Shown here: positions 47,842 through 62,283 of the stretch, piece by piece
How positions within the stretch are numbered: the stretch's first letter is position 1
Layout of the letters: every line of letters starts with the position of its first letter
DNA from: Sulfobacillus benefaciens
GTDB lineage: Bacteria; Bacillota; Sulfobacillia; Sulfobacillales; Sulfobacillaceae
Assembly: GCA_003023725.1 (NCBI GenBank)
Contig: PXYT01000001.1
Location: 62,001-126,000, forward strand
Length of the DNA stretch: 64,000 nucleotides
Reading direction: 5' to 3'
Position numbers and translations under genes: made by a program
The notes under the pieces: generated by a model
Seen by the model: only the letters and a program-made list of their open reading frames with translations
What the model was told of the DNA's origin: nothing
Database searches by the model: none

Positions 47842-49575
47842 TTATTGGTGGATTGTCCAATAATTGGGATATTGCGTATCGGTGATGGGGTTGTACGTCG
47901 AATTTACACCGTGGATATAACTGGCGGTTTCGTTAAACGTCGGCGTCCATGGCATCCACAATACCGGCAATTGCGACGAGGCGTAACTCACGTAAGCGTT
48001 CAACCGGGAACGGATCTGACTGGGTGACCCGGGCTGATAGGTAGACTGCACAAGGCGATTCATCGTGTTGCTCTGGTATCCTCCATAATTGGCGGCAGAT
48101 CCTGTGGCAAACAACCCACCTCCTGTTGGATAGTAATCGGGCGAATACGTCCAGCCGCCTCCCCACCACGCCATTTGCCATTTGCTGGCATTCGCCTGGT
48201 CTGTGCTGGCTATCAAAGTATTGAAGGGTTGAGATTCCAGATGAACCTGTACACCCTCTTTCGCCCAGTCTTGCTTAATTAACTGCACCTGGTTGGCCAC
48301 GGCCGATACACCTGAGACATAATCCAGGGTGAAGGCTAACTTGAGAGTTCCTTTGGTCATCACCCCATGATTCATTTTCCAGCCATGCTGCAACAGAATC
48401 TTTTTGGCAGCTGCCGGATTGTACGGAGCAGGGTTTTTCAATCCCGCATCATAAAACTGCGTTCGGGGTTTGGACGGGATTGGACTGAACTCTGTGACGC
48501 CGTGACCATGATAAAAAGCATCGATCATGCCTTTTTGGTCGATTCCCATCTCTAGCGCTTTCCGTACATACCCGAATCTGATGATCTTTCCGAAGTTTCC
48601 GGGGGCCTTGGAACTGAAATTGGTCACAAGGTAATTGAATCCAAATGGGTAAGTCGTGCTAAAACGGTCTCCGGCAAGCTGGGCACGAGAGTTATACAAG
48701 GAAAACGGCAGATAACCCACATTAACCTTGTTTCCCTTTAATGCCCCAAACTCCGAGCTATTGCTCGATTCATACAGATAAACCAATCTTTTGATGGACG
48801 CCTTATGCCCGTCATAAGCAGGGTTCGGCACAAATGCCCAGTACTGATTGTTGGTCTTGGATTGAGCCGCATCGAACTTAAAAGCTCCGTCGACCACACT
48901 GTAATATTTGGAACCCGGGTTATTGGCTTCCGATTTAATGAATTTTAGTTCGTTGTTCATGTTCTTATGAATATCCCACACCGACTTGGGTGCCGGAATA
49001 ATTTGGGCCAAGCCATTATGCATGAACCACTGAGGATTCGATGGTTTGTTAAGGGTCACAATGACTTTGTAGGGCCCATCGGCCTTCACGCTTTGCCACC
49101 GCGTCGGAAGTCCACCGATTCCCGCCCCTCCGTAGCCCCACGGCAAGGAAGACGAATTGGAACTGGTTGCCATAAGCAGTTTCGCCGTCCAAACGACATC
49201 CCGGGATGTCACCGGCTTCCCATTTGACCAATGCCACTTCTTGTTCAGTGTGATCGTGTAGACCGTACCGTTCGAATTCGAGGAGACATTCGAAGCCAGG
49301 GACCTGTGATAATTAATGCCGTCACTCTTGGAAATGTGCAGGAGTGGCACATACATCAATGAATTCATCTGGCTGTTATACACCGAAAAGGCCGTTGATG
49401 CCTCGACCGGGAAAAACCAGTTGGGAGACACTTGTACAGGCAAAGAGACCAACGCCACGTTTCCCACTGGAGATTTGGCCGCCCCTGCCGACGCTCCAGC
49501 CGTGCCGCAACCAGCCAATATTAATGAAGAACCGACAATTGCCGATGTAAGTCCTACGATTGATCGACGCCTCAT
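47842..49575 (-). CDS. Oligopeptide-type ABC transporter solute-binding lipoprotein (copy 2)
   Basis: SBP_bac_5 family, 577 residues, lipobox LAGC (about residue 23). Body parallels copy 1 throughout: SVYNSQMNSLMYVPLL, WHWSNGKPVTSRDVVW, KSVWDIHKNM, YGGAGIGGLPTRW, GWTYSPDYYPTGGGLFAT. ATG at 49575 with AGGAGGAAG upstream. Ends in a strong terminator, so it is a separate transcript from copy 1. Expected to bind peptides or similar solutes outside the membrane; ligand unknown. Confidence 0.91.
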   Translation of the reverse strand: MRRRSIVGLTSAIVGSSLILAGCGTAGASAGAAKSPVGNVALVSLPVQVSPNWFFPVEASTAFSVYNSQMNSLMYVPLLHISKSDGINYHRSLASNVSSNSNGTVYTITLNKKWHWSNGKPVTSRDVVWTAKLLMATSSNSSSLPWGYGGAGIGGLPTRWQSVKADGPYKVIVTLNKPSNPQWFMHNGLAQIIPAPKSVWDIHKNMNNELKFIKSEANNPGSKYYSVVDGAFKFDAAQSKTNNQYWAFVPNPAYDGHKASIKRLVYLYESSNSSEFGALKGNKVNVGYLPFSLYNSRAQLAGDRFSTTYPFGFNYLVTNFSSKAPGNFGKIIRFGYVRKALEMGIDQKGMIDAFYHGHGVTEFSPIPSKPRTQFYDAGLKNPAPYNPAAAKKILLQHGWKMNHGVMTKGTLKLAFTLDYVSGVSAVANQVQLIKQDWAKEGVQVHLESQPFNTLIASTDQANASKWQMAWWGGGWTYSPDYYPTGGGLFATGSAANYGGYQSNTMNRLVQSTYQPGSPSQIRSRLNAYVSYASSQLPVLWMPWTPTFNETASYIHGVNSTYNPITDTQYPNYWTIHQ

Positions 49576-50621
49576 GAAACTTCCTCCTAGGTGCTCAAAA
49601 TTTTCGCAAAAGTTCCAACACTACATGACAATAATATTCGACAAATACAACTGCGTTTAGCATTGTATATCAGAAGAAAATTGTCGTCTAGAGGGGATCA
49701 CGAAGAGGTAGAGAGGATTGGCTACACTTATCAAATGCGCTGTCAACCTCCGTACTTGAGCGATGGGGATATCAGGCGCTCGGCGTTAGGCGACATTTTG
49801 GATCGATCCCCGTCCACAAGTTGCTTGCTAGAGATAGATAGTGTATCCATAGAAACGTGGTGGTTCAGGTGTACCCACCACAAAGTCAGATTAAAGGCTT
49901 AACGAAAACCGAATACGAAACGTTGCGAGAAAGGTGTCGGTATGCGAACAATCTCCACCAGGTTCGGATTGTATTCGCTTCGGCCATATTTTTCTCGAAG
50001 GCGAGCTGGTGCGACGAACAGCCCGCCCGAATGCTGAACATACCCCAGGTCTGTGACATGTTCAGCGCGGCACAGTGGTCGATACAGCGGGATGAACGGG
50101 GGACGCTGCGATCTCAGCGGACCCCCAAACCCCATCCACGAGAAGGCTGGGGGATACCTAAACGGGAAATCATAGGCGAACGGTTTCCTAAAGATGTGGA
50201 TGAGGCAGCCCTGGCGACCACGACAACAGCGTATACAGTTCATCACGGGGAGAGGCGAGGCTTGCACGGCGTAGCCAGTGTCGTTGACCCGTTTAGAGCT
50301 CTTTTTGACACGAAGAAGGCACCGACCTATAAGGGTAGCCGAAGTTGGATGGTGGCCAAGAGCAGTCAGAGCACCTTCATAGCAGCGTCGCAGCCCCGAA
50401 AGCATACCTCGATGTGACGTAAAGGAAGGCGCCGTTACCGAACCATTCATTCAGGAACAAACATGTCAATCGGTAAGCTTCCGTGTTAAATCACTCCCGA
50501 GAGGGTTCTGCTTACGAGGAGATACTCCAAGCGTGAGAGTAAATAACATAGAGCGGTGTGCGGGCAAACTGCACGCACTGTTCATTGAGGAGCCAGCTTC
50601 GTCAGAGGTCGGCCTTCTCCA
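49576..50621. other. Long gene-poor region with a decayed transposase
   Basis: 1046 bp between the binding-protein gene and corA. Besides the TnpB-like remnant listed separately it has only open frames without ribosome sites on both strands (for example 49899-50450 minus). Possible weak minus-strand promoter for the binding-protein gene: TACAAT at 49667-49662 with TAGACG 17 bases before it. The remainder shows nothing I recognise. Confidence 0.45.
49855..50070 (+). pseudogene. TnpB-like (IS200/IS605 OrfB) remnant
   Basis: From GTG codons at 49855 the frame reads VVVQVYPPQSQIKGLTKTEY and ETLRERCRYANNLHQV, the N-terminal pattern of IS605-type OrfB/TnpB proteins (YETLRELCRYANNLYN). Similarity continues only by shifting frame (LYSLRPYF near 49966, then FLEGELVRR near 49990) and then stops near 50055. 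It looks like a frameshifted N-terminus left after internal loss. No RuvC residues remain. Confidence 0.5.
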
Positions 50622-51536
50622 TCAAATCCATTTCCTTCGTTTGAATATCCATAGGAGTAGCGTGGAAATCACAACAACCGTTCCAATTACCATGTAAAAT
50701 CCCCAAGGATTATCAGCTCCCGGAATGTCTCTGAAATTCATACCATAAAGGGCCGCGATGACCGAGGTTGGCATGAACAACGCCGTCACAATCGTTAGGG
50801 TTTTGACAATTTCATTGAGCCGGTTTGATACACTTGACAGATAGATGTCCAAGATAGTATCCATCATTTCCCGGTAAGTATCGGCGGTGTCGGATAAACG
50901 AATAACATGGTCGTAGAGTTCAAATGAGTAGATGGCGTCCATGCTCGCTTCACCGCTCCAATAGCGCGCCAGTTGATAGGCCACGTCGCGCTGTGAACTC
51001 AAAATCCGTCTCACCTGCATCGTCATCCGTTTCAGGCGAAAAATTTCCTCCTTGATGTGCGTGCCGTGGTTTTCATGCAAAGTTTGGTGTTCAATGTGCG
51101 CGACCCGGTCGTTAAACTCGTCAAAAAACGGAAACGTCGCCTCCAACAAGTCATCGACAACATAGAATGCCAAATGATTGCTCGATTGAATAAGACCAGG
51201 ATGTGAGAGCAGTTTACTGCGGGTTTCCTCAAAATCCTGGGCCACGCTGGGATCCATACTCCAAGACACTATGCTGGTATCGGTCACTACCAAATGAATG
51301 GCAATGGTCTCCAGTTCAGAGCGGCCTATGTCATCCGGATTCAATTTAAATACCCGGAGGTAAAAAAAGTTCGGATACCGATCAAACGCCGCCCGGCTTT
51401 GTTTCCCATCCCGTAAGGGAAGGCGAATGTTGAAAGAACCCAGCCGGGAATCCAGTTCCCGTTTTGATGGATTGTCCAGATGTATCCAGTTGATCGGTGG
51501 GTTGGTGTGCTCAAACGTTGCTTTCCGGATACCCAT
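50622..51536 (-). CDS. corA: CorA-family Mg2+/divalent metal transporter
   Basis: About 304 residues. Large acidic cytoplasmic domain with a long helix, then two C-terminal membrane helices with the signature YGMNFRD in the pore region (TSVIAALYGMNFRDIPG), and a basic tail. The ATG at 51536 has CAGGAGG upstream; a GTG three codons earlier overlaps this site. Single gene, divergent from the permease operon that follows. Confidence 0.93.
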   Translation of the reverse strand: MGIRKATFEHTNPPINWIHLDNPSKRELDSRLGSFNIRLPLRDGKQSRAAFDRYPNFFYLRVFKLNPDDIGRSELETIAIHLVVTDTSIVSWSMDPSVAQDFEETRSKLLSHPGLIQSSNHLAFYVVDDLLEATFPFFDEFNDRVAHIEHQTLHENHGTHIKEEIFRLKRMTMQVRRILSSQRDVAYQLARYWSGEASMDAIYSFELYDHVIRLSDTADTYREMMDTILDIYLSSVSNRLNEIVKTLTIVTALFMPTSVIAALYGMNFRDIPGADNPWGFYMVIGTVVVISTLLLWIFKRRKWI

Positions 51537-51921
51537 ATTTCCCACCTCCTGGAATATGGTGTCCCAAACAACTAAAACTCATCCTCATTGCAGCACCTTA
51601 AGCCGCCACAATGTCGCAGATCTCAAGACACTCCACACCTCATGGACGTCTATTCAGGGTAATCTTCAAGGATCGGGAGATTCAAAGAATCCGCAAACCG
51701 CCTTTGGACATCACCCATAAGGGCACTGCGGAATCTCCGCCCCTTCCCTTGATCAGTGTGTGTCTTGCGGGAGAACAATGAGATTGCGAACCGTTGTGGG
51801 GTGGGTTCCGAGAATGCGAGATGGCCAGAAAAGCCCGAAGTCTTCGCACACATTCTGTGCCATTGCCCAATTGTTGTGGTGATTTTTTCACTGGTAAGTA
51901 GGAAGCCGCCGAAGTGTATAA

Positions 51922-51951
51922 TTGACATAAAAGTCAAGGCTAAATTATAAT
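51922..51951 (+). promoter_or_regulatory. Promoter of the dppC-dppB-type operon
   Basis: TTGACA (51922-51927), 18-base spacer, TATAAT (51946-51951). Start near 51958 gives a leader of about 130 bases containing the tandem repeats. Confidence 0.8.
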
Positions 51952-52042
51952 TCATTGTTGTGGTTTCTCAAACAATTGCGGGTCCCGAGTGCAAGATTTG
52001 TTAAACTTGGGATACTTGATATGAGCAAAATTCAACCATGAT

Positions 52043-52069
52043 AACACGAGTAACACGGGTAGCACGGTT
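52043..52069 (+). repeat. Three tandem 9-base repeats in the operon leader
   Basis: AACACGAGT, AACACGGGT and AGCACGGTT in direct succession, about 20 bases before the dppC-type start. Possible operator or RNA-protein site; not long enough to exclude chance. Confidence 0.4.
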
Positions 52070-52090
52070 GAGGCAGGAGCGGATAACAAC

Positions 52091-52999
52091 ATGATTTCAC
52101 CAGAACTCGAACCGCGAGATACCCTACGCGGGAATCAACCGGCACAAGAAAAACGAAGAGCCTCCCGTGAATGGCGAGCGTTTTGGAAAAGTCCGCTAGC
52201 CCGATTTGGTGTAGCCGGGCTCATTTTCCTTGTCCTGTTCACGTTTGTCGGTCCTCTTTTGTATCACGTCAGCGCCTATCAGCCCAACCTTCTTTATACA
52301 CTGAACCCCCCCAGCGCAAAATTCCCGCTGGGCACCGACAGTCTGGGGAGGGATTATCTTTCCCGCATGATGATTGGAGGACAGCTATCGCTGGAGGTGG
52401 GCTTTGCAGCGGCATTCATGACCACGGTAATCGGAGTGATTTACGGCTTAACCGCCGGTCTCATCGGTGGGGCATTGGATTCGTTGATGATGCGGCTGGT
52501 TGACATTTTTATTGCCATTCCCAGCTTATTTCTGCTGCTCTTCGTTGATTCCGTCTTCCGGCCCAATGCTGTATTGCTCATTATTATCATCGCGGTGCTG
52601 TCGTGGTTTGGCGTCGCTCGTCTTGTTCGTTCAGAAGTCCTCTCTCTGAAACGGCGTGATTATGTCGAGGCCGCACGAGCTTTAGGGGCCAGTAACTGGC
52701 GGATAATGATCCAGCACTTATTGCCCAATGTCATGGGTGTGGTTATTGTTAACGCAACATTTCAAGTAGCAGATGCCATCCTCACGGTAGCAGCCTTAAG
52801 CTTTTTAGGATTAGGCTTACCACCGCCGACGCCAAACTGGGGAGAAATGCTATCCTCCAGCATGTCATACATGTTCCAAAATGCGTGGTGGCTGATTTAC
52901 CCTCCGGGGCTGGCCATCTTAATTGTAGAATTATCGGTCAATTTCATCGGCGACGCATTGCGTCAGGCATTTGACCCACGACTGCGTAAATCCGCGTGA
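52091..52999 (+). CDS. Oligopeptide ABC transporter permease, DppC/OppC type
   Basis: 302 residues. N-terminal cytoplasmic segment and first helix typical of OppC_N (WKSPLARFGVAGLIFLVL), the LGTDSLGRDYLSRMM motif, five or six helices and the EAA loop YVEAARALGASNWRIMIQHLLP that docks to the ATPase. ATG with CAGGAG upstream. Partner of the DppB-type gene 19 bp downstream; the order C-B is the reverse of most dpp/opp operons. The ATPase is not in the window. Confidence 0.93.
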   Translation: MISPELEPRDTLRGNQPAQEKRRASREWRAFWKSPLARFGVAGLIFLVLFTFVGPLLYHVSAYQPNLLYTLNPPSAKFPLGTDSLGRDYLSRMMIGGQLSLEVGFAAAFMTTVIGVIYGLTAGLIGGALDSLMMRLVDIFIAIPSLFLLLFVDSVFRPNAVLLIIIIAVLSWFGVARLVRSEVLSLKRRDYVEAARALGASNWRIMIQHLLPNVMGVVIVNATFQVADAILTVAALSFLGLGLPPPTPNWGEMLSSSMSYMFQNAWWLIYPPGLAILIVELSVNFIGDALRQAFDPRLRKSA

Positions 53000-53018
53000 A
53001 GAAGGGAGGCAATAGATT

Positions 53019-53972
53019 ATGCTAAAATACATCATCCGGCGCGCCATTCAGGCGATACCCTCCCTTTTGGGTGTAACACTTATTGGATTTTTTCTGGTAC
53101 ACATTGTGCCTGGCGGTCCAGCCCAGGCCATGCTCGGACCCCGAGCCACCCCAGCTCGAATTGCGCAGGTCAACCAGGAGTTTGGGCTCAATAAGCCTCT
53201 GCCTCTACAATATATTCAGTGGTTGGGACAGTTATTACACGGCAATTTGGGAACATCCTATTTTTATAACGAAACTGTCTTGCATCTAATAGCTGTAAAC
53301 ATGCCCAGAACCCTGGCAATTGTTGGTTTAGGCGTCTTGTTTGCCCACGTTTTTTCTATTCTTTTAGGAAGCTTGCAGGCTTATTATCATGACACAAAGT
53401 TCGATTACATCATGACGTCCTTAACCTACTTCTTTTATTCCATGCCAATATTCTGGCTGGGTATTATGATTATCATGTTGTTTTCCATTACTCTCAACTG
53501 GTTCCCGAGCGGTGGGCTGTCTAATCCTCTCACGCCCAATCCCGGATTGGGATCGTGGATAGCGCACACCACCTTACCGGTGCTAACGATTATGCTCACC
53601 ACGGTAGCGGGATGGGGGCGATATATGCGCACAGCAATGAGTGAGAACCTTATTCAGGACTATATCCGGACCGCTCGCGCAAAAGGGATCAAAGAATCCG
53701 CTGTTGTGCTGAAACACGCGCTTCGCAATTCGGTCTTGCCCCTCATCACCCTACTGGGATTTGCTTTGCCTCAGTTATTCTCCGGAGCGTTATTGGTCGA
53801 AGTCATCTTTAACTATCCGGGAATGGGTTTGTTATTCTGGGATGCAGCCAATCAAAGAGACTATCCAGTAATTTTGGGCATTGTGGTCATTACCGGATTC
53901 CTTACGATTCTGGGAAACCTCTTGGCCGATCTTCTTTACGGGATGGTGGATCCCCGCATTCAATATAACTAG
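53019..53972 (+). CDS. Oligopeptide ABC transporter permease, DppB/OppB type
   Basis: 317 residues with six predicted helices. Family markers: N-terminal YIIRRAIQAIPSLLGVTLIG, FFLVHIVPGGPAQ, the EAA loop (IRTARAKGIKESAVVLKHAL), the NYPGMGLLFWDAA segment and the C-terminal ADLLYGMVDPRIQYN. ATG after GGGAGG. Forms the channel with the upstream DppC-type protein. Its stop is followed by an inverted repeat shared with the convergent editing-domain gene. Confidence 0.94.
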   Translation: MLKYIIRRAIQAIPSLLGVTLIGFFLVHIVPGGPAQAMLGPRATPARIAQVNQEFGLNKPLPLQYIQWLGQLLHGNLGTSYFYNETVLHLIAVNMPRTLAIVGLGVLFAHVFSILLGSLQAYYHDTKFDYIMTSLTYFFYSMPIFWLGIMIIMLFSITLNWFPSGGLSNPLTPNPGLGSWIAHTTLPVLTIMLTTVAGWGRYMRTAMSENLIQDYIRTARAKGIKESAVVLKHALRNSVLPLITLLGFALPQLFSGALLVEVIFNYPGMGLLFWDAANQRDYPVILGIVVITGFLTILGNLLADLLYGMVDPRIQYN

Positions 53973-53987
53973 AAATAAAGCAACAGG

Positions 53988-54041
53988 CTGAACGTCCCAA
54001 GCTATTCCGAGCTAGCTCACAAGGATACATCGGACGTTCAG
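53988..54041. terminator. Inverted repeat between convergent genes
   Basis: Perfect 10-bp arms (53988-53997 / 54032-54041) around a 34-base loop that contains a further AGCT-rich palindrome. It overlaps the stop of the minus-strand gene. Possible bidirectional terminator; no T-tract. Confidence 0.5.
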
Positions 54042-54448
54042 TTGTGGGGGCAAACGATGCGACCTTTGCTTCCGATTTCGCCGATGTCTTGAATCAGAAG
54101 CTCATATACCCAACCGAAGGTAGTCCACTCGACAGCTCGGATACCTTCGGCATAAATACGCTCGGGCAGTGCTTCATACAGTTTTCTGGCATCATTGAGA
54201 GCCATAGGACGGTTTGACAAGTGATTAAATGAATGCAAAATCAACGGAAGAGCGCAGCGCCCTCGCGTCCGGACAAAATCTCCTAGACAATGACCGATTT
54301 GGTTCAAAGTATCCCCTTCTTCCAATGCCAGATACACGACCGTCGACTCCAATGTCCCAACAGAACGTGCTTCGGGAGTGGCTTGACGAATAACCGGCAA
54401 TCGGGGTTGCGCTTTGAAAATTCGGGCATAAAAGTACAAAGCGATCAT
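54038..54448 (-). CDS. Freestanding archaeal-type threonyl-tRNA synthetase editing domain protein
   Basis: 136 residues. From memory, it follows the archaeal ThrRS N-terminal editing domain (a D-aminoacyl-tRNA-deacylase-like fold that removes serine from tRNA-Thr): a beta strand VVYLALEEGD, a helix, then LPLILHSFNHLSNRPMALND (compare the VYPFAHLS...P motif), helix ARKLYEALPERIYAEGIRAV and the FGWVYELLIQ strand (compare APFGYYKAFKI). The first about 35 residues are less like the family. There is no synthetase body in the window. ATG at 54448 with GGAGGAAAT. Promoter overlaps that of the divergent binding-protein gene. Alternative: a related DTD-like protein of other specificity. Assignment is by motif only. 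Confidence 0.65.
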   Translation of the reverse strand: MIALYFYARIFKAQPRLPVIRQATPEARSVGTLESTVVYLALEEGDTLNQIGHCLGDFVRTRGRCALPLILHSFNHLSNRPMALNDARKLYEALPERIYAEGIRAVEWTTFGWVYELLIQDIGEIGSKGRIVCPHN

Positions 54449-54496
54449 GAAATTTCCTCCTGCATACGATGTGTGAAAAATTCACCGAGGTGTCTC

Positions 54497-54505
54497 TGAT
54501 ATAAT
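54497..54505 (+). promoter_or_regulatory. Extended -10 promoter of the binding-protein gene (54532)
   Basis: TGATATAAT at 54497-54505, no clear -35. Start near 54512, about 20 bases before the GTG. The -10 overlaps the -10 of the opposite promoter. Confidence 0.5.
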
Positions 54506-54528
54506 ACTTAAACATGAAGAAAGGACAA
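54501..54528 (-). promoter_or_regulatory. Promoter of the editing-domain gene
   Basis: Minus-strand TTGTCC (54528-54523), 16-base spacer, TATTAT (54506-54501). Leader of about 45 bases to the ATG at 54448. The -10 is on the opposite strand of the TATAAT used by the divergent gene. Confidence 0.45.
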
Positions 54529-54531
54529 ACG

Positions 54532-56082
54532 GTGCAACAAAACGTGCGGCGAACAGCAATTCTTGCGGGATTCGTCATAAGTCTTGTTACTCTCTTGGCA
54601 GGGTGTGGGCCCAAGGTTAGCTTGCCTCATGTTCGTTTGCCTCATGTTCGTTTGCCGCACCCGCGAATTTTCTATCGACCCGAAATGATATTGGGTGTTC
54701 CCCGTTGTTCGCTGAACCCGTTGTCGTCGCATACCAAAAATCGGAACTGGTTCATAAGCCTTATGTATGACAGCTTAGTCAAGATTCAGCCCGACGGTGA
54801 AGTCATTCCGGACATTGCCAACAGTTGGAGTATACGCAATCATTACACCACGTACGTCTTCCATTTGAACCCGCATGCCAAATGGTGGAACGGAAGACCG
54901 ATCAGTGTTCATGATGTCGCATGGTCTTATTGGCTGTACGCAAATCCTCAAGCACCCATAAGCAACGCAAAATCGTTGACTTCACTAATTCGTGGAATTC
55001 ATATTATTAACGCCGGAACGGTCGAAATTCAACTGAAGTATCCTGATCCGGCTTTCTTGAGTAACGTGGCAGCCTCCGGCAGCGGGCACCCAATATTACC
55101 GGCATTTATGTTATATCATGTGCCGATCAAAAATTTGCCATTCTCGCCCATATTCAATAAAATCCCTGACATGATGGGCTCTGGCCCGTATCGGCCCTTC
55201 TCTGCTAATGCACAAGGTGTTAAGTGGGTTGCAAACCCTCATTATTTCTTAGGCGCCCCGAAAAGCCATGTGCTAATTACAACCTGGACGAACTCACCCG
55301 CTCCGGATATCAACTGGACTTCCGAAAAAACCGACGGAAAATCGCATGTTCTGACTTACTCTGGACCCAGCTATTACATGTTGCTGTATAACAGCCCAAA
55401 AATTCCCTCGGCCGTTGGCACCGCCTTGCCGGAAATGATTAACCGTCTTGCCCTGGCACGATCGGAAGCCCCCTCCTTCACCCCGGCATATCAGCCTGTG
55501 ATTCCGGGGAGTCCCTACACCGTTGTGCAACCGTTCCAGAATCCTCGTGCCATTCTACATGACGCCGGATACAAACAGATTCATCATACGTGGGTTGATC
55601 CTCACGGACATAAAATAGACCTGGGAGTCGTCACCGGCAGTGACCCTTCTGCTGTTCGTTTAGCTTCGGCCATTCATCGTCAATTAACGGCCGCCGGATG
55701 GAATATTCGGGTCACAACATCTCATAACCTGCTGCACACGGAGGAGACACATGCTTTTACAATGGCCCTTGTAGAGCGCCGTGTACGCCCGTACCCCTTA
55801 TTGGTACAAGAATACGGCCCTCGGAGTCGCCACAACTATGGCGAATATGATTCATTGCCTTTCCGTCAATCCTTGCAGAATATTTTGACCTCACCCAATC
55901 CGACCACTGCAACCAAAGAGGCGCTAACCGCCCTTCTCCAGTCACCGCCCGGCGCTTTTCTATTGTGGCGCGCACATCATATTTTTATCACGTCGCACGT
56001 GCATGGATTTCGGGTCAATCCTTTCGACCCCCTGTCTAGTGTTCAAAATTGGAGTGTCACACCATCCACAAGACAATCGTAG
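54532..56082 (+). CDS. Oligopeptide-type solute-binding lipoprotein (divergent member)
   Basis: About 516 residues from the GTG at 54532, seven bases after AAGG; the ATG six codons earlier is only about two bases after the predicted transcription start and has no ribosome site. Lipobox LAGC, then a repeat LPHVR-LPHVR-LPHPR and an SBP_bac_5 body (YDSLVKIQPDGEVIPDIANS, FHLNPHAKWWNGRPISVHDV). Shorter than the other binding proteins here and less similar; several of their shared stretches are missing. Same strand as the dppC-dppB pair, with the editing-domain gene inserted between on the other strand. Confidence 0.88.
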   Translation: MQQNVRRTAILAGFVISLVTLLAGCGPKVSLPHVRLPHVRLPHPRIFYRPEMILGVPRCSLNPLSSHTKNRNWFISLMYDSLVKIQPDGEVIPDIANSWSIRNHYTTYVFHLNPHAKWWNGRPISVHDVAWSYWLYANPQAPISNAKSLTSLIRGIHIINAGTVEIQLKYPDPAFLSNVAASGSGHPILPAFMLYHVPIKNLPFSPIFNKIPDMMGSGPYRPFSANAQGVKWVANPHYFLGAPKSHVLITTWTNSPAPDINWTSEKTDGKSHVLTYSGPSYYMLLYNSPKIPSAVGTALPEMINRLALARSEAPSFTPAYQPVIPGSPYTVVQPFQNPRAILHDAGYKQIHHTWVDPHGHKIDLGVVTGSDPSAVRLASAIHRQLTAAGWNIRVTTSHNLLHTEETHAFTMALVERRVRPYPLLVQEYGPRSRHNYGEYDSLPFRQSLQNILTSPNPTTATKEALTALLQSPPGAFLLWRAHHIFITSHVHGFRVNPFDPLSSVQNWSVTPSTRQS

Positions 56083-56187
56083 GACCATAACCCCACAAAA
56101 CTCATATCATTCCCGGTATCCTCTAGGAGGAAAATATTGGCGGAATCAATCTTTGGCAAATTCCCACACTGCAACAAACAGAAAAGG

Positions 56188-56211
56188 GTCGCTTACTCAA
56201 GAGTAAGCGAC
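56188..56211 (-). terminator. Terminator of tRNA-Pro
   Basis: Perfect 11-bp stem with a 2-base loop (56188-56198 / 56201-56211), followed on the minus strand by CCCTTTTC. Begins 4 bases after the encoded CCA. Confidence 0.7.
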
Positions 56212-56215
56212 TAAA

Positions 56216-56292
56216 TGGTCGGACTGGCGGGATTTGAACCCACGACCTCTACCACCCCAAGGTAGCGCGCTACCAAACTGCGCCACAGCCCG
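56216..56292 (-). tRNA. tRNA-Pro (anticodon GGG)
   Basis: 77 bases including an encoded CCA (complement of 56216-56218). Acceptor CGGGCTG pairs with CAGTCCG (one G-U); D arm with TTTGGTAG; anticodon stem CTACC/GGTAG with loop TTGGGGT, anticodon GGG; T arm with GGGTTCAAATCCC. Transcribed leftwards. The only RNA gene in the window. Confidence 0.96.
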
Positions 56293-56307
56293 ATTTGATG
56301 CAGTGAA

Positions 56308-56336
56308 ATTATAGCACGCATACACCCAAGAAGCAA
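56308..56336 (-). promoter_or_regulatory. Promoter of tRNA-Pro
   Basis: Minus-strand TTGCTT (56336-56331), 17-base spacer, TATAAT (56313-56308), ending about 16 bases before the tRNA 5' end. Confidence 0.65.
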
Positions 56337-56517
56337 CCATTCGCCATTGTCATAAACGGATCAACAATTCCCGACTGCACCACGCTCAACTCTTGTGTCC
56401 TCTTGGCATCTGCCAATATCGGTACGTACTTCAGCCAGCACATGCTGTGATATCTCTCGTTCTTCATTCACGCTAGGTTAACACCTGAGCTGGCGGGATC
56501 CCTCAGTGCGGTCTCGT

Positions 56518-57747
56518 TCAGTCGCTCAAGATGATGTTGCTTTCCAGCACAGGACGCGTAAGGAGTGTCAAAACCAATGAAATTACGCTTGACAATCCCA
56601 GGGTCACCAAACCAGCCAGAACAAACCCGGATGGCATCAATGCCGCATAAATCGGTCCTCCAAGCAATGCTCCCACGTTGAAGACGAGAAATAGCCACCC
56701 AGTGACTGTCCCGGCAATGGAGTCGTCCACAGAGTCTTGGCCCATTGTCGCAACCAGATCGACATAGATACCCCACCCAGCCCCGAAGGCAAACGTCATC
56801 ACGCTGAGAGCCGTGACGTTCCGCGATACGGAAAACATTCCCAGACTGCCAATCATAATGAGAAGGGCAGACAAACTGACGATGTATTTACGTCCAAACC
56901 GATCAGCTAAATAGCCAATGGGATAAGCACAAATCAACCCGCCCAATCCACCCATTGAGGCAATTCCGGCCGCAACTCCCGGGGAAAGTGCCAATCCTTT
57001 CAGTAAATAATCCGAATAGTAGCCAAGATACCCAAATAGGACAATCCCAAACATAAAAATCGATCCTGATAAAATCACGACATTGCGATGAAAAATTCCT
57101 GAAAACCGTATTGTCCTCTTCTCCACTTCTTTATAAGTTCGGGGAATAACGAAATAAAAGACAATCAACGATATCACGGCGGCCACCCCGGAAATTATAA
57201 AGGGCGTTTGATAGTGAGGAAGGAAAGGCGTAATTAATAACGGGCCCACAAACAGCCCTCCCCCAAAAAAGATCGCAAAAGCAGATACGGCCCGTCCGCG
57301 AGTTTCAAAGAAAATGTCGCCCAACAGCGCTACAATAGCCGGCTGAAATATCCCCACACCAATACCCACCAAAAATCTTGCCAGAAACAATGTTGCAGGT
57401 GTTGTGGCATAGCCGGTCATGACGGTGAACACCGCAAAGATCGTCACCGATAACATAACGGTATATTTCACGGAAAATCGGTCAAATAAATACCCACCGA
57501 CTATGCTGAATATCGCAATTCCTAAAGCAAATCCCGTCCCCACAGATCCCAGCAGCGCTGCCGTGGCATGCACATTGTGAACAATATAAGGCGATCCGAA
57601 AAAATATAATTCGGAATCAAATCCTTCGAGAAACGCCGGAATCGCAGCGATCAGCACAATCAGCAAAAACCATGTCCGACTCTTTTGGGCCATGGAACGG
57701 ACTGTAGGGGAGGGTGAAGATTCCAGATTCGACTTATGGATAGACAA
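56518..57747 (-). CDS. MFS transporter, metabolite:H+ symporter type
   Basis: 409 residues with twelve predicted helices. MFS motifs occur in both halves: GGYLFDRFSVKYTVMLS (about 85-101) and IGYLADRFGRKYIVSLS (about 275-291). The helix 1 region AAIPAFLEGFDSELYFFGSP carries the conserved Asp found in aromatic acid/sugar symporters (compare GFDG). Substrate not determinable. TTG start at 57747 with AAGGAGG eight bases upstream. Convergent with nothing; the tRNA-Pro gene follows on the same strand. Confidence 0.87.
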   Translation of the reverse strand: MSIHKSNLESSPSPTVRSMAQKSRTWFLLIVLIAAIPAFLEGFDSELYFFGSPYIVHNVHATAALLGSVGTGFALGIAIFSIVGGYLFDRFSVKYTVMLSVTIFAVFTVMTGYATTPATLFLARFLVGIGVGIFQPAIVALLGDIFFETRGRAVSAFAIFFGGGLFVGPLLITPFLPHYQTPFIISGVAAVISLIVFYFVIPRTYKEVEKRTIRFSGIFHRNVVILSGSIFMFGIVLFGYLGYYSDYLLKGLALSPGVAAGIASMGGLGGLICAYPIGYLADRFGRKYIVSLSALLIMIGSLGMFSVSRNVTALSVMTFAFGAGWGIYVDLVATMGQDSVDDSIAGTVTGWLFLVFNVGALLGGPIYAALMPSGFVLAGLVTLGLSSVISLVLTLLTRPVLESNIILSD

Positions 57748-58495
57748 CTGCCTCGCCTCCTTTATGGTGATATCTGATAACTCAAGTGTTCATCCGGTGT
57801 CCAAAAAATTGGCAGACAAGCCGATTGGCAGTCCCGTGCCAGTGACAAGTCAGGGCCATTATACCCTACACCTCACATGAAATCTTATAGGCAATGAACC
57901 TAAAAACTGTGGCTACTGATGCACGGAGAAACAAGTAAAATACATTCTCCGCTATTATTTTTTTCTTCCTAATTTTCAGTCGATTATTAGTGTAATGACT
58001 TGCTTTCGGTAAATCAAGGGTAAATGTAAACCCTACATCCTCCATAGGCCAACCCGCACGTGAGTGCGCAGATCGATGCCGGCAGGTGATAAACCACAGA
58101 ATTGACGATGCCTCCAAGACACGTAGAGAACAACGTGTCCTAACAAGAGGGCTCAGAGCGCGCGAAAGCTGTGCGCAGCCCAGTCTTGGTAACTCCGGAA
58201 TGCACACGTATGCCCCCAAGCATGGAACAAAGCGGCACAGCCTCAGCATCTCTGGGGTGTGTCGAGGGCGCCGGCACCTGGTCATTCGTGTAGTAGTGAC
58301 CCCCATTAGCTAAAGGAGCATCTCTCTCCGAACAGCGATCCCGGACCGAGCTCGCTGCGAATCATGGCACTGCAGCAAACTTCCTCGTCCTGCCTAAACC
58401 GCTATTGTTGGTGCGCTCTGTCCCGGTCAGAGTGAAGAAAATCAGAAACCGAATGGCGAGCTGGACTCATGTGAGCCTCACATTAACACAAAACA
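57748..58495. other. Intergenic region of low coding content
   Basis: About 750 bp. A minus-strand TATAAT at 57863-57858 without a good -35 may serve the MFS gene. On the plus strand a terminator-like hairpin lies at 57924-57964 with no gene before it. Open frames at 57866-58306 (minus) and 58086-58313 (plus) have no ribosome sites. The stretch about 58150-58320 is GC-rich and might be a remnant of a mobile element, but I cannot show this. Confidence 0.4.
57924..57964 (+). terminator. Orphan terminator-like hairpin
   Basis: Seven-bp stem CGGAGAA/TTCTCCG (57924-57930 / 57945-57951) followed by CTATTATTTTTTT on the plus strand. No plus-strand gene precedes it. Confidence 0.35.
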
Positions 58496-58526
58496 GGATG
58501 ATCACCACCAGATTGGGTGATCATCC
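58484..58526 (-). terminator. Terminator of the second permease operon
   Basis: Eleven-bp stem (58516-58526 with 58496-58506), 9-base loop, then TGTTTTGTGTT on the minus strand, 28 bp after the DppB-type stop. Confidence 0.65.
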
Positions 58527-58553
58527 CTACCGCATCCTTTTCTTAAGAAGAAA

Positions 58554-59507
58554 TTAGCGGTAACTAATCCTGGGATCAACCAGGCTGTATAAGACATCCG
58601 CCAGCAAGTTGCCGATAACGGTCAAAACCCCGATAATCATAATAATACCTAACAAAATCGGATAGTCCCGTTCATTGGCGGCATTCCAAAACAATAATCC
58701 CATGCCAGGGTAATTGAAAACCAGTTCCACCACTAATGCGCCGCCAAACAATGTGGGAATGGAAAGTCCAAATAACGTAATAATGGGCAAAAGCGAGTTT
58801 CTTAAGGCATGTTTAAACACCACCGCGAGTTCCGACAAGCCTTTGGACCGTGCAGTGCGAATATAATCCTGAAGCATCGAATCGATCATAGATGAGCGCA
58901 TAAATCGAGCCCATGAGGCGACCGTCGCCAGTACCAAAACCAAAATGGGCAATACGGCGTGTTCGGCATAACCGACAAACCCGGAAGGTCCCCCACTGGT
59001 GAAGGTAATCCCTCCGGACGGAAACCATCCCAGATAAATCGCAAAAATCAGCACGACCATGATTGCCAGCCAGAATACCGGCATAGACCAGAAGAAAAAA
59101 GTTACGGTGGTAATCACATGATCAAACCATCGGTTGCGAAAATATCCCTGAATGGTTCCTAATATGATGGCAATCAGATGGGAAACCATTATGGCCACAA
59201 CCACGATAGCCAGAGTATGCGGAAGATATTCTCCGATGACTTTTAGCACCGGTTGGTTAAACGTATAAGAATAACCAAAATTTCCATGCAACAAGCTATC
59301 AAACCAGATCCAAAACTGCACATACAGTGGCTTATTAAGCCCCAGGGAACGATTAATGGCCGCGATGCGCTGTGGGGTAGAGTGCTGCCCGAGTAGAGTC
59401 TGTGCTGGTCCCCCAGGAACAATATGCAAGAGGATAAAACTGAAAATGGCTATTCCGATGAGTGCGGGAATCGATTGGATCAACCGCCGAACAATATAGA
59501 CAAACAT
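58554..59507 (-). CDS. Oligopeptide ABC transporter permease, DppB/OppB type (second copy)
   Basis: 317 residues, the same length as the copy at 53019 and clearly its paralogue: IVRRLIQSIPALIGIAIFSF, LLHIVPGGPAQ, EAA loop YIRTARSKGLSELAVVFKHA, NYPGMGLLFWNAA and the C-terminal ADVLYSLVDPRISYR. Six helices. ATG at 59507 with AGGAGG upstream. Third gene of the operon binding protein-DppC-DppB; followed by a terminator. Confidence 0.94.
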   Translation of the reverse strand: MFVYIVRRLIQSIPALIGIAIFSFILLHIVPGGPAQTLLGQHSTPQRIAAINRSLGLNKPLYVQFWIWFDSLLHGNFGYSYTFNQPVLKVIGEYLPHTLAIVVVAIMVSHLIAIILGTIQGYFRNRWFDHVITTVTFFFWSMPVFWLAIMVVLIFAIYLGWFPSGGITFTSGGPSGFVGYAEHAVLPILVLVLATVASWARFMRSSMIDSMLQDYIRTARSKGLSELAVVFKHALRNSLLPIITLFGLSIPTLFGGALVVELVFNYPGMGLLFWNAANERDYPILLGIIMIIGVLTVIGNLLADVLYSLVDPRISYR

Positions 59508-59522
59508 CCGTGGCTACCTCCT

Positions 59523-60416
59523 TTACAACCGGGTATCGAGCGCTGATTGCAACGCTTCCGAAACAAAGTTAATGGAGAGCAACGTCCACAGCAGCGCAAT
59601 ACCTGGAGGATAAATCAGCCACCACGCATTTTGAAACATGTAGTTCATCGACGTCGACAACATTTCGCCCCAGTTTGGCGCCGGTGCCGGCAATCCCAAT
59701 CCGAGAAAGCTTAAGGTGGCTATAGCGATAATCGATCCGGCAATTTGAAAGATCGTCGCCACCATGACCGTACCCATGACGTTCGGCAACAATTCCCGGA
59801 GCATAATATGCCAATTGCTGGCCCCAAAGGCACGGGAGGCTTCCACATAGTCGCGCTGCTTGAGTGATAAGACTTCGGAACGCACAATCCGCGTCACGCC
59901 AAACCATGAAGTGATAGCCAAAATCAAGGTTAATAAAACGGCATTGGGCTGAAACACCGCATCCAAAAATAGTAAGACAAAGAGCGTGGGAATTGTCAGC
60001 AGCACATCAATAATACGCATCATCAAAGTGTCGACAAATCCTCCCACCAAACCGCTGACAAGCCCGTAACCGACGCCGATAATCATGGACGCCACCGCCG
60101 CGGCGAAACCGACTATCAGAGACACTTGCCCGCCCAACATGAGCCGGGCCAGATAATTTCGCCCCAAATCATCGGTTCCCAAGGGGAAGCGGGTGCTGGG
60201 AGGCCGCATCAGATCCGTGATATGGGTCGTATAAGCACTGGCCGGGTATAAAAGCGGCCCAACGAAGCAAAATAACACAATTGCGCTCAAACCGATGACC
60301 CCGGCCAAGCCTAAAGGATGATGCCAAAAAGCCCGCCAGGTACGGGAGTGTTTCGGTTTTTCCTCGGACACGGTCTGGTCTGTCAGAGTTGCCGAATTCA
60401 TTGTTTGTGAAACCAT
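59523..60416 (-). CDS. Oligopeptide ABC transporter permease, DppC/OppC type (second copy)
   Basis: 297 residues, paralogue of the protein at 52091 (shared FPLGTDDLGRNYLARLMLGG and the EAA loop YVEASRAFGASNWHIMLREL). Six helices; the C-terminal part has NWGEMLSTSMNYMFQNAWW as in the other copy. ATG at 60416 with AAGGA upstream. 103 bp after the binding-protein gene, with a hairpin between, and 15 bp before the DppB-type gene. Confidence 0.93.
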   Translation of the reverse strand: MVSQTMNSATLTDQTVSEEKPKHSRTWRAFWHHPLGLAGVIGLSAIVLFCFVGPLLYPASAYTTHITDLMRPPSTRFPLGTDDLGRNYLARLMLGGQVSLIVGFAAAVASMIIGVGYGLVSGLVGGFVDTLMMRIIDVLLTIPTLFVLLFLDAVFQPNAVLLTLILAITSWFGVTRIVRSEVLSLKQRDYVEASRAFGASNWHIMLRELLPNVMGTVMVATIFQIAGSIIAIATLSFLGLGLPAPAPNWGEMLSTSMNYMFQNAWWLIYPPGIALLWTLLSINFVSEALQSALDTRL

Positions 60417-60470
60417 GTGAGGGCATCCTTTCCGTAATGAAAGTCAAACTTTTTTGACGCATCCAAAAGG

Positions 60471-60497
60471 AACGGAGAGAGGGCTTCAAGCACTTCC
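60471..60497 (-). terminator. Attenuator-like hairpin between binding protein and permease genes
   Basis: Arms AACGGA-AGAGGG and CCCTCT-C-TCCGTT pair over 12 positions with one bulge, followed by CCTTTTGG on the minus strand. Hairpins here are common in ABC operons and keep the binding protein more abundant than the permeases. Confidence 0.4.
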
Positions 60498-60519
60498 CTC
60501 TTCCGTTCGTTTTGCTGAT

Positions 60520-62283
60520 TTACTTCGATACCCACCAGTAGTTGGGGGAAATACCTCCGGTAAATGGATTGGAAACATATTTGCTCCCAATATGCACCGT
60601 CTTGGCGACTTCGTTGTAGGCCGGAGGCCATGGCACCCACAACACGGGCAAATCGTGAGCCACGAAAGCCTGGAAATTATATAAAGCCTGCAAGGATTGT
60701 TTTTCCGTCGCATAGGGCTGGTGAGTCAGGGAAATCAAATGAGCCATGGTGGGATTGTAATAGCCCTGGCTGTCAAGTCCAACCCCAGGCTTGCCAAAGA
60801 GACCGCCTCCGGTCGGATAGGAGCCGCCCCAGGAAATCCCGCCGTAATCTTCCATTTGCCAGTGATTGTTGGTCAAACCCACAATCGTGCTAAAGGGTTC
60901 CGCCTTTAAGCTGACTTGAATTCCTTCTTTAGCCCATCCCTGTTGTAAGAGAGTGGCTTCCTCGACGAAGGACTGTGATCCGCTCGAATACACCAGCTGG
61001 AATTTTAGCTGTTGTCCTCCTTTGGTCATGACTCCGTTGACCTCGTGCCAGCCGTGAGCCTTCAGCAGTTTGACACCCTTGGCGGGGTCATAGGGATAAA
61101 TGGTCTTCAAATTGGGGTCGAAAAAGATGGACTTGGGCTTCGGGGGAAGAATTCCCACCTCGGTGACCGCGTTGCCATGAAAGGAGGCCGCGTTGATAGC
61201 ATTTTGGTTAATTCCCATCTGCATGGCCTGCCTGACATACAAGTTCTTAAAGATATTGCCGACGCCGTTCGGGGCATTAAGACTCGCGTTACTGTTCCCG
61301 TGGTTCATATTGACCAGCACGTCGCCATACGCAAGATTATTCTCTACCGACAGATTATAATTGGCATTTAACGCCGCCCGTGAACCCCAAAGCGAGTTGG
61401 GGAGATACCCCACCTGAATCGATCCCGTCTTGAGCGCGGCAAACTCAGCATTGCCACTCGTTTCATACTGAAATATCAGTTTCGACACATAGGCTTTGTG
61501 CCCTCCATACGTCGGATTGGGAACAAACGTCCATTTTTGACTGGACACAGCCTGTGTCAGCTTAAAAGGTCCATCCACAACATGATAGACGCTGGAAGTC
61601 GGGTCCGTCGCCACCTTGCCGAGCCAGGTCAGTTCCTGAGTCATATTCGTGGGATATCTGTCGAAAACCGACTGCGGCAAGGGAGTAAGTTGGTTGAGAC
61701 CATTATAAATGAACCACTGTTGGTTAGCCGGTTTGTTGAGCGTCACCGTAAATTGATAGGTACTGTTGGCTACTACACTCTTGACGCCAGTGGGAATATC
61801 TCCGGTCCCGGCTCCGACGTAAGGCCATGGAGACGGCGCATTTGACGCCGAAGCCGCCTTGATCAAATTCCAGGTAAAGACGACGTCCTTGGCGGTGACG
61901 GAATGGCCGTTCGACCATTTATAGTTCGGGTGCAAAGTCACCACATACTTTGTTCCGGCGGCATTAGGCTTGATACTGCTAGCCAAGGAACGCTGGTAAT
62001 TAATTGACCCAGTGGAATGCAGCGTAATCAGGCTTTTATACATTAAATTCTGAACCCAGGCATTGTAGACACTATCGTTTAACCCGTTCATTAACGGAAA
62101 ATACCAGTTCACATTGCTGTCAGCAGGCAAGGCAAAGACGACGGTGCCGCCCGACTGGGGTTTCAGCGATGTTGGATGCGCCTGAGAAGTGGTAGTCGTG
62201 GTGCCGCATCCTGCCAAAGCCAAGCTTGCTGTGACAACAAGGGCAGATGCCAGCGTAATTTTCTTTGATGTCTTCCCTCTCAC
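60520..62283 (-). CDS. Oligopeptide-type ABC transporter solute-binding lipoprotein (operon copy)
   Basis: 587 residues, SBP_bac_5 family. Lipobox LAGC (about residue 26), Thr-rich linker, and a body similar to the genes at 45707 and 47842 (DSVYNAWVQNLMYKSLI, HPNYKWSNGHSVTAKDVVF, PTGGGLFGKPG, NYWWVSK end). GTG start at 62283 with AGGAGGAG upstream. Heads an operon with DppC- and DppB-type permeases on the same strand, so this is the binding protein of a known transport unit. Confidence 0.93.
   Translation of the reverse strand: MRGKTSKKITLASALVVTASLALAGCGTTTTTSQAHPTSLKPQSGGTVVFALPADSNVNWYFPLMNGLNDSVYNAWVQNLMYKSLITLHSTGSINYQRSLASSIKPNAAGTKYVVTLHPNYKWSNGHSVTAKDVVFTWNLIKAASASNAPSPWPYVGAGTGDIPTGVKSVVANSTYQFTVTLNKPANQQWFIYNGLNQLTPLPQSVFDRYPTNMTQELTWLGKVATDPTSSVYHVVDGPFKLTQAVSSQKWTFVPNPTYGGHKAYVSKLIFQYETSGNAEFAALKTGSIQVGYLPNSLWGSRAALNANYNLSVENNLAYGDVLVNMNHGNSNASLNAPNGVGNIFKNLYVRQAMQMGINQNAINAASFHGNAVTEVGILPPKPKSIFFDPNLKTIYPYDPAKGVKLLKAHGWHEVNGVMTKGGQQLKFQLVYSSGSQSFVEEATLLQQGWAKEGIQVSLKAEPFSTIVGLTNNHWQMEDYGGISWGGSYPTGGGLFGKPGVGLDSQGYYNPTMAHLISLTHQPYATEKQSLQALYNFQAFVAHDLPVLWVPWPPAYNEVAKTVHIGSKYVSNPFTGGISPNYWWVSK

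Follow-up and report, generated by a model that had tools for sequence, protein, structure and literature searches.

What does a free copy of an archaeal proofreading domain do in a bacterium? The acid-loving genus Sulfobacillus carries a small relative of such a tRNA proofreading domain, encoded in S. benefaciens within the window (the whole stretch of DNA analysed, 64,000 nucleotides of contig PXYT01000001.1). Archaeal threonyl-tRNA synthetase (ThrRS) editing domains remove Gly from tRNA(Gly) (PMC4491819). Since bacterial tRNA(Gly) has the U73 that these domains seem to favour, a free copy should be harmful in a bacterium, as argued in PMC8762117. At stake is whether a few residue changes can turn the fold of D-aminoacyl-tRNA deacylase (DTD, DTD1) to new substrates, or make it safe.

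The gene for the editing-domain (ED) protein is a 136-codon open reading frame starting with ATG and preceded by a strong Shine-Dalgarno sequence (Table 1). Orthologues in G001-G006 show 47 to 64% identity. For the pair G003/G004, the only one with clearly unsaturated dS, dN/dS is approximately 0.15, and the ED gene is under purifying selection. The Pfam match (below), the genus-wide orthologues and this dN/dS confirm that the open reading frame is a true gene and that its likeness to the archaeal domain reflects homology and not chance. The frame proposed in an earlier sequence-only reading is thus borne out; its strand (minus) was absent from that account.

Assignment to the archaeal ThrRS editing-domain family, also proposed there, holds. 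Pfam model PF08915 (tRNA-Thr_ED) matches residues 1-124 of 136 with 37.1 bits (E 4e-9), exceeding the gathering score of 30.2, and matches nine of nine clade members (threshold E up to 1). As a single sequence the protein gives only a marginal match to solved structures (E 0.009, Aeropyrum pernix ThrRS-2 editing domain); a clade profile built from nine relatives reaches the same domain (4rr6/4rrh) at E 1.7e-11 and that of Methanocaldococcus jannaschii at E 0.0024. An AlphaFold model, made with an input of three sequences, has a modest mean pLDDT of 60.9, with values < 50 at residues 2-29 and 112-130, the latter taking in part of the pocket. When this model was searched with Foldseek (E 4e-6 to 4rrh), archaeal ThrRS editing domains filled the ranks up to 23, and a DTD followed at rank 24. 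VIA Z scores of 8 to 11 (10.9 to 4rrl, 11 to DTD) were obtained only for DTD, the archaeal ThrRS editing domain and ATD, the following rows scoring 5. The DTD family model (Tyr_Deacylase, PF02580) has no match in the ED protein (hmmscan, E up to 10), nor has any NCBIfam model. SQFTL and Gly-cisPro motifs are absent, with HSFNHLS and GExGSKGR in their stead, and there is no anticodon-binding domain, the 136 residues comprising the editing domain alone. The ED protein belongs to the tRNA-Thr_ED family, stands alone and has a DTD-like fold.

The gene is kept in seven of seven well-covered Sulfobacillus genomes, the sole exception in the genus being G007, which is 61% complete. Distant orthologues occur in two other families of the same order (G026, 42% identity; G032, 30%), and no search found the gene in other genera of the Sulfobacillus family. 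Of 154 genomes in the class, 12 match the Pfam tRNA-Thr_ED model, as do two of 398 sampled from the phylum (the source genome and G082); in this phylum sample the clade profile gave only weak matches outside the class (E 9e-4 to 0.009). Proteins of the family outside the order are those of G035, G066 and G082, a cut-short one in G074 and a divergent one in G057, none with a ThrRS fused in reading frame. The G074 gene (L066:7780-8139) ends early, before the FGW motif, and its end overlaps the start of a gene for a P-loop ATPase that is CooC-like by eye.

In a tree of 16 sequences, a starred branch parts the Sulfobacillus clade from a group formed by G035, G066 and G082 (the Phe-Asn group, named for residues discussed below), which joins the archaeal sequences; these number three, none of them a full chain, and the long branch of G032 is placed unsurely. 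Earlier publications describe free tRNA-Thr_ED homologues in archaea and fusions in bacteria. What is new is the Firmicute ED clade, its fixed altered pocket and a further altered set, Phe-Asn, among other Firmicutes. No literature treating Sulfobacillus and threonyl-tRNA synthetase together was found, a weak absence as most subscription papers lie outside the search.

The surroundings of the gene are peptide transporter genes, away from any synthetase, as had been noticed from the sequence: oppB lies on one side and the gene for a solute-binding protein (SBP) on the other (Table 1). Five relatives with sufficient sequence have the identical order of SBP (divergent), ED, oppB (convergent) and oppC, and G006 and the window agree over the sequence read. 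The same SBP is encoded in six further genus members, and the region between its gene and the ED gene spans 55 to 79 bp in four relatives. The inverted repeat between the convergent genes is probably a terminator common to both, to judge from its RNA fold.

Table 1. Features at the ED locus, with positions in the window
Feature	Position	Strand	Basis
OppC-type permease	52091..52999	+	Pfam
OppB-type permease, convergent with ED gene	53019..53972	+	Pfam, conserved synteny
Inverted repeat CTGAACGTCC...GGACGTTCAG between convergent oppB and ED genes	53988..54041		RNA fold z -2.57
ED protein gene, 136 aa, free-standing tRNA-Thr_ED family	54038..54448	-	Pfam, clade profile, VIA Z
Divergent intergenic region, 65 bp, between ED and SBP genes	54449..54513		
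Shine-Dalgarno AGGAGG, 7 nt 5' of ED gene ATG	54456..54461	-	Sequence
Peptide ABC solute-binding lipoprotein (SBP_bac_5)	54514..56082	+	Pfam PF00496
tRNA-Pro(GGG), beside SBP gene	56216..56292	-	

In G017, which belongs to the same family and has no ED gene, oppC, oppB and the SBP gene are continuous, with a terminator-like repeat seen by eye in the short oppB-SBP gap. The simplest reading is that the ED gene entered, or survived only in, this gap in the genus ancestor. In Sulfobacillus the ED gene runs antisense to the genes on either side, so it would not be expected to share a transcript with the transporter; this orientation and the G017 arrangement led to a link with peptide transport being dropped, and the setting looks incidental. 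A link with tRNA-Pro(GGG) was also dropped because three relatives that lack the ED gene have the same tRNA in their transporter cassette, as was a plasmid origin, there being no plasmid match. Many family members have this tRNA inside the cassette or next to it, whether the ED gene is present or absent. More widely, positions 47842-62283 of the window hold two similar peptide ABC transporter sets, several SBP_bac_5-like genes, CorA and an MFS gene.

The source genome (G000) encodes a single ThrRS (634 aa in frame) of the bacterial type, retaining the HSSAH and CSGPH motifs of an intact N2 editing site. The premise that a bacterial N2-type ThrRS and the ED protein exist separately is therefore correct, and the second ThrRS for which a search had been proposed is absent from G000. 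The ThrRS editing site is intact in all genomes compared, so editing of Ser-tRNA(Thr) in cis is expected. G000 also has one ordinary DTD and two YbaK-type genes, and its tRNA_SAD domains are confined to ThrRS and AlaRS, meaning that it has no AlaX. AlaX is absent from genomes with and without the ED gene, and most genomes carry YbaK-type and DTD genes regardless of it; the proposal that the ED protein stands in for a missing editing function was rejected, as no gap was seen. Separately, G026 has a second ThrRS-like stretch (C1:988810-990376, L042) broken by stops and frame changes, representing either a pseudogene or sequencing errors, with an intact ThrRS elsewhere.

The ED protein might nevertheless be a backup that removes Ser from tRNA(Thr) in trans, like the free ThrRS-ed of Crenarchaea, for example when the editing cysteine of ThrRS is oxidised. 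The oxidising, metal-rich acid in which Sulfobacillus lives counts in its favour, as do the tRNA-Thr_ED family match and the retention of His83. In E. coli the ThrRS editing cysteine is oxidised by H2O2 (PMC4041444), and archaeal domains are thought to need U73 (PMC11295145), which is found in four of the five tRNA-Thr genes read in G000. However, in G011, a member of the same family without the ED gene, 400 kb yielded two tRNA-Thr genes, and each of them has U73 too. U73 was therefore dropped as an ED-linked trait; it allows the presence of the gene and does not account for it. With the ThrRS editing site intact throughout and with the pocket changes described below, a backup of this kind is unlikely. 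An extra tandem tRNA-Thr pair was seen in G000 (C105:28604-28753, L109; CGT with C73, TGT with U73), with bodies unlike those of the other tRNA-Thr genes and lying among unassigned small open reading frames, possibly in a mobile element.

The bases at position 73 also bear on a second chiral proofreader, which would clear D-amino acids from U73 tRNAs poorly served by bacterial DTD. Bacterial DTD calls for a purine at position 73 (PMC11295145), the tRNA-Cys and tRNA-Gly genes read in G000 are, like those for tRNA-Thr, mostly U73, and the fold is that of DTD. Such a role is highly improbable given that SQFTL and Gly-cisPro, two motifs that are key to the chirality of DTD (PMC3845328), are missing and that the genome already has its ordinary DTD.

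It is the pocket that sets the Sulfobacillus protein apart. Seven residues neighbour the scissile bond in Pyrococcus abyssi: P80, F81, A82, H83, Y120, K121 and E134 (PMC4491819). At the first six of these positions the Sulfobacillus residues are S, F, N, H, V or I, and Y, so that His83 corresponds to an invariant H76 and, in an alignment anchored by FGW, Tyr120-Lys121 is replaced by Val/Ile-Tyr. The position of Glu134 is taken by Lys128 in the MAFFT alignment, where it adjoins a gap in a region in which the model is poor and which lies beyond the Pfam match (ending at 124) and the profile alignments to solved structures (1-120). The seven genus members show no variation at the equivalents of F81 and H83, at the new S, N (N75) and Y (Y115), or at K128. 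Mean pairwise identity among these members is 0.86 in the three pocket segments and 0.44 elsewhere, which ranks top among 136 circular shifts, a descriptive rank as the segments were picked after viewing the alignment. The invariant new residues and the dN/dS of 0.15 point to a site that appears to be maintained in altered form, as opposed to decaying. In the other free Firmicute group (G035, G066 and G082), positions 120-121 are Phe-Asn and position 134 is Arg.

The functional weight of these replacements differs. In archaeal enzymes K121M is severely compromising, whereas Y120A and E134A mutants remain active and selective (PMC4491819). The tolerance of the latter two favours the backup trans-editor; the change of Lys121 to Tyr speaks against it, as does replacement of Pro80 and Ala82. 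Loss of the same Lys, required for placing the catalytic water, raises the possibility of a catalytically dead descendant that binds tRNA or aminoacyl-adenosine, or acts as a regulator, and the C-terminal KGHPLxEL segment is unrecognisable in the ED protein. This is unlikely, as the retained His and the invariance of the new N75, Y115 and K128 better suit an active site, and DTD is active with Met at the Lys position (PMC4491819).

On balance, we favour the view that the ED protein is a DTD-fold aminoacyl-tRNA deacylase turned to a substrate other than the canonical Ser-tRNA(Thr). With the pocket rebuilt and fixed, and ThrRS expected to edit Ser-tRNA(Thr) in cis, the substrate is probably another charged tRNA. 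The Ser-tRNA(Thr) trans-editor put forward in the sequence-only reading fits poorly with a ThrRS that keeps HSSAH and CSGPH and with the loss of Tyr120, Lys121 and probably Glu134; its alternative, a deacylase of other use, appears to suit the evidence better. Loss of the residues positioning the tRNA 3' end was to count against the proposal; residues of this kind, holding the substrate in the archaeal domain, are indeed largely replaced, which weakens the canonical substrate and leaves family and fold standing. All told, a function beyond canonical Ser-tRNA(Thr) editing would be the better bet.

By analogy with the archaeal relatives, from which the dimer, the catalysis and an aminoacyl-tRNA as substrate class are all taken by homology, the protein is likely to be a homodimer and to act in trans as an aminoacyl-tRNA deacylase. 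The CCA end would lie in a groove between the segments H72-S-F-N-H-L-S78 and T109-T-F-G-W-x-Y-E116, with recognition mostly by protein backbone, as in those relatives. Archaeal catalysis employs the 2'-OH of the tRNA (PMC4491819), and here too the ester would be hydrolysed by water that the tRNA's own 2'-OH activates. Several points speak against a deacylase with a new substrate. The protein could be inactive on any ester, since it has Tyr where the archaeal enzymes place the catalytic water with Lys. The archaeal enzymes can largely do without side chains for specificity, so a changed pocket may still serve an unchanged substrate. The modest quality of the model, low over part of the pocket, counts against it as well.

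A more specific form of the deacylase, a new trans-editing activity that is doubtful and offered as a lead only, would either clear an acidic or N-blocked aminoacyl group from a tRNA or strip U73 tRNAs of small amino acids while sparing Gly-tRNA(Gly), on which archaeal domains would act in a bacterium. It draws on the Lys near the place of Glu134 and on the Tyr that has replaced the water-positioning Lys. In the archaeal enzymes Glu134 reaches across the dimer to hold the alpha-amino group of the substrate (PMC4491819); provided that the alignment is correct, a charge swap at this position would make binding of a free alpha-amino group less favourable.

Among the closest known systems is the trans-editing ThrRS-2 of A. 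pernix (4rr6, 4rrh), whose editing domain is the best match of the clade profile among solved structures. It shares family, fold and domain length with the Sulfobacillus protein and is likewise separate from the catalytic ThrRS. In contrast to the ED protein, it has an anticodon-binding domain, and where its pocket has Tyr115 and Lys116, Sulfobacillus has Val/Ile and Tyr. Furthermore, archaeal ThrRS-ed has a partner ThrRS without an editing domain, whereas the Sulfobacillus ThrRS has its intact N2 site. The in-cis archaeal domains (P. abyssi, 1y2q; M. jannaschii, 4rrf) have the DTD-like fold, His83-Leu-Ser and Phe-Gly-Trp/Tyr in common with the ED protein. They are 13 to 15% identical to it over the alignment, and it differs in being free-standing and in the replacement of P80, A82, Y120, K121 and probably E134. 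DTD (DTD1) shares the fold and the free-standing state, but has the SQFTL and Gly-cisPro that the ED protein lacks; the latter has no Tyr_Deacylase match, and DTD is encoded separately in the genome.

Stand-alone tRNA-Thr-ED occurs beside SepCysS in archaea and as SepRS fusions in bacteria (PMC5424206, PMC8762117). As in Sulfobacillus, these are tRNA-Thr_ED domains without ThrRS, and the SepRS fusion is likewise bacterial. The Ser-recognition motif is reported to be completely conserved in the SepRS fusions (PMC5424206, PMC8762117), which is not so in the ED protein, and the neighbours of the latter are peptide-transport genes, unlike those of the SepCysS- or SepRS-associated homologues. The proteins of G035, G066 and G082 resemble the ED protein in being free-standing and bacterial and in having lost Lys121, but retain Pro80, Ala82 and KGHP and are only 20 to 22% identical to it. 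The free bacterial copies described here thus form two separate groups, neither of which has the Lys that the archaeal enzymes need.
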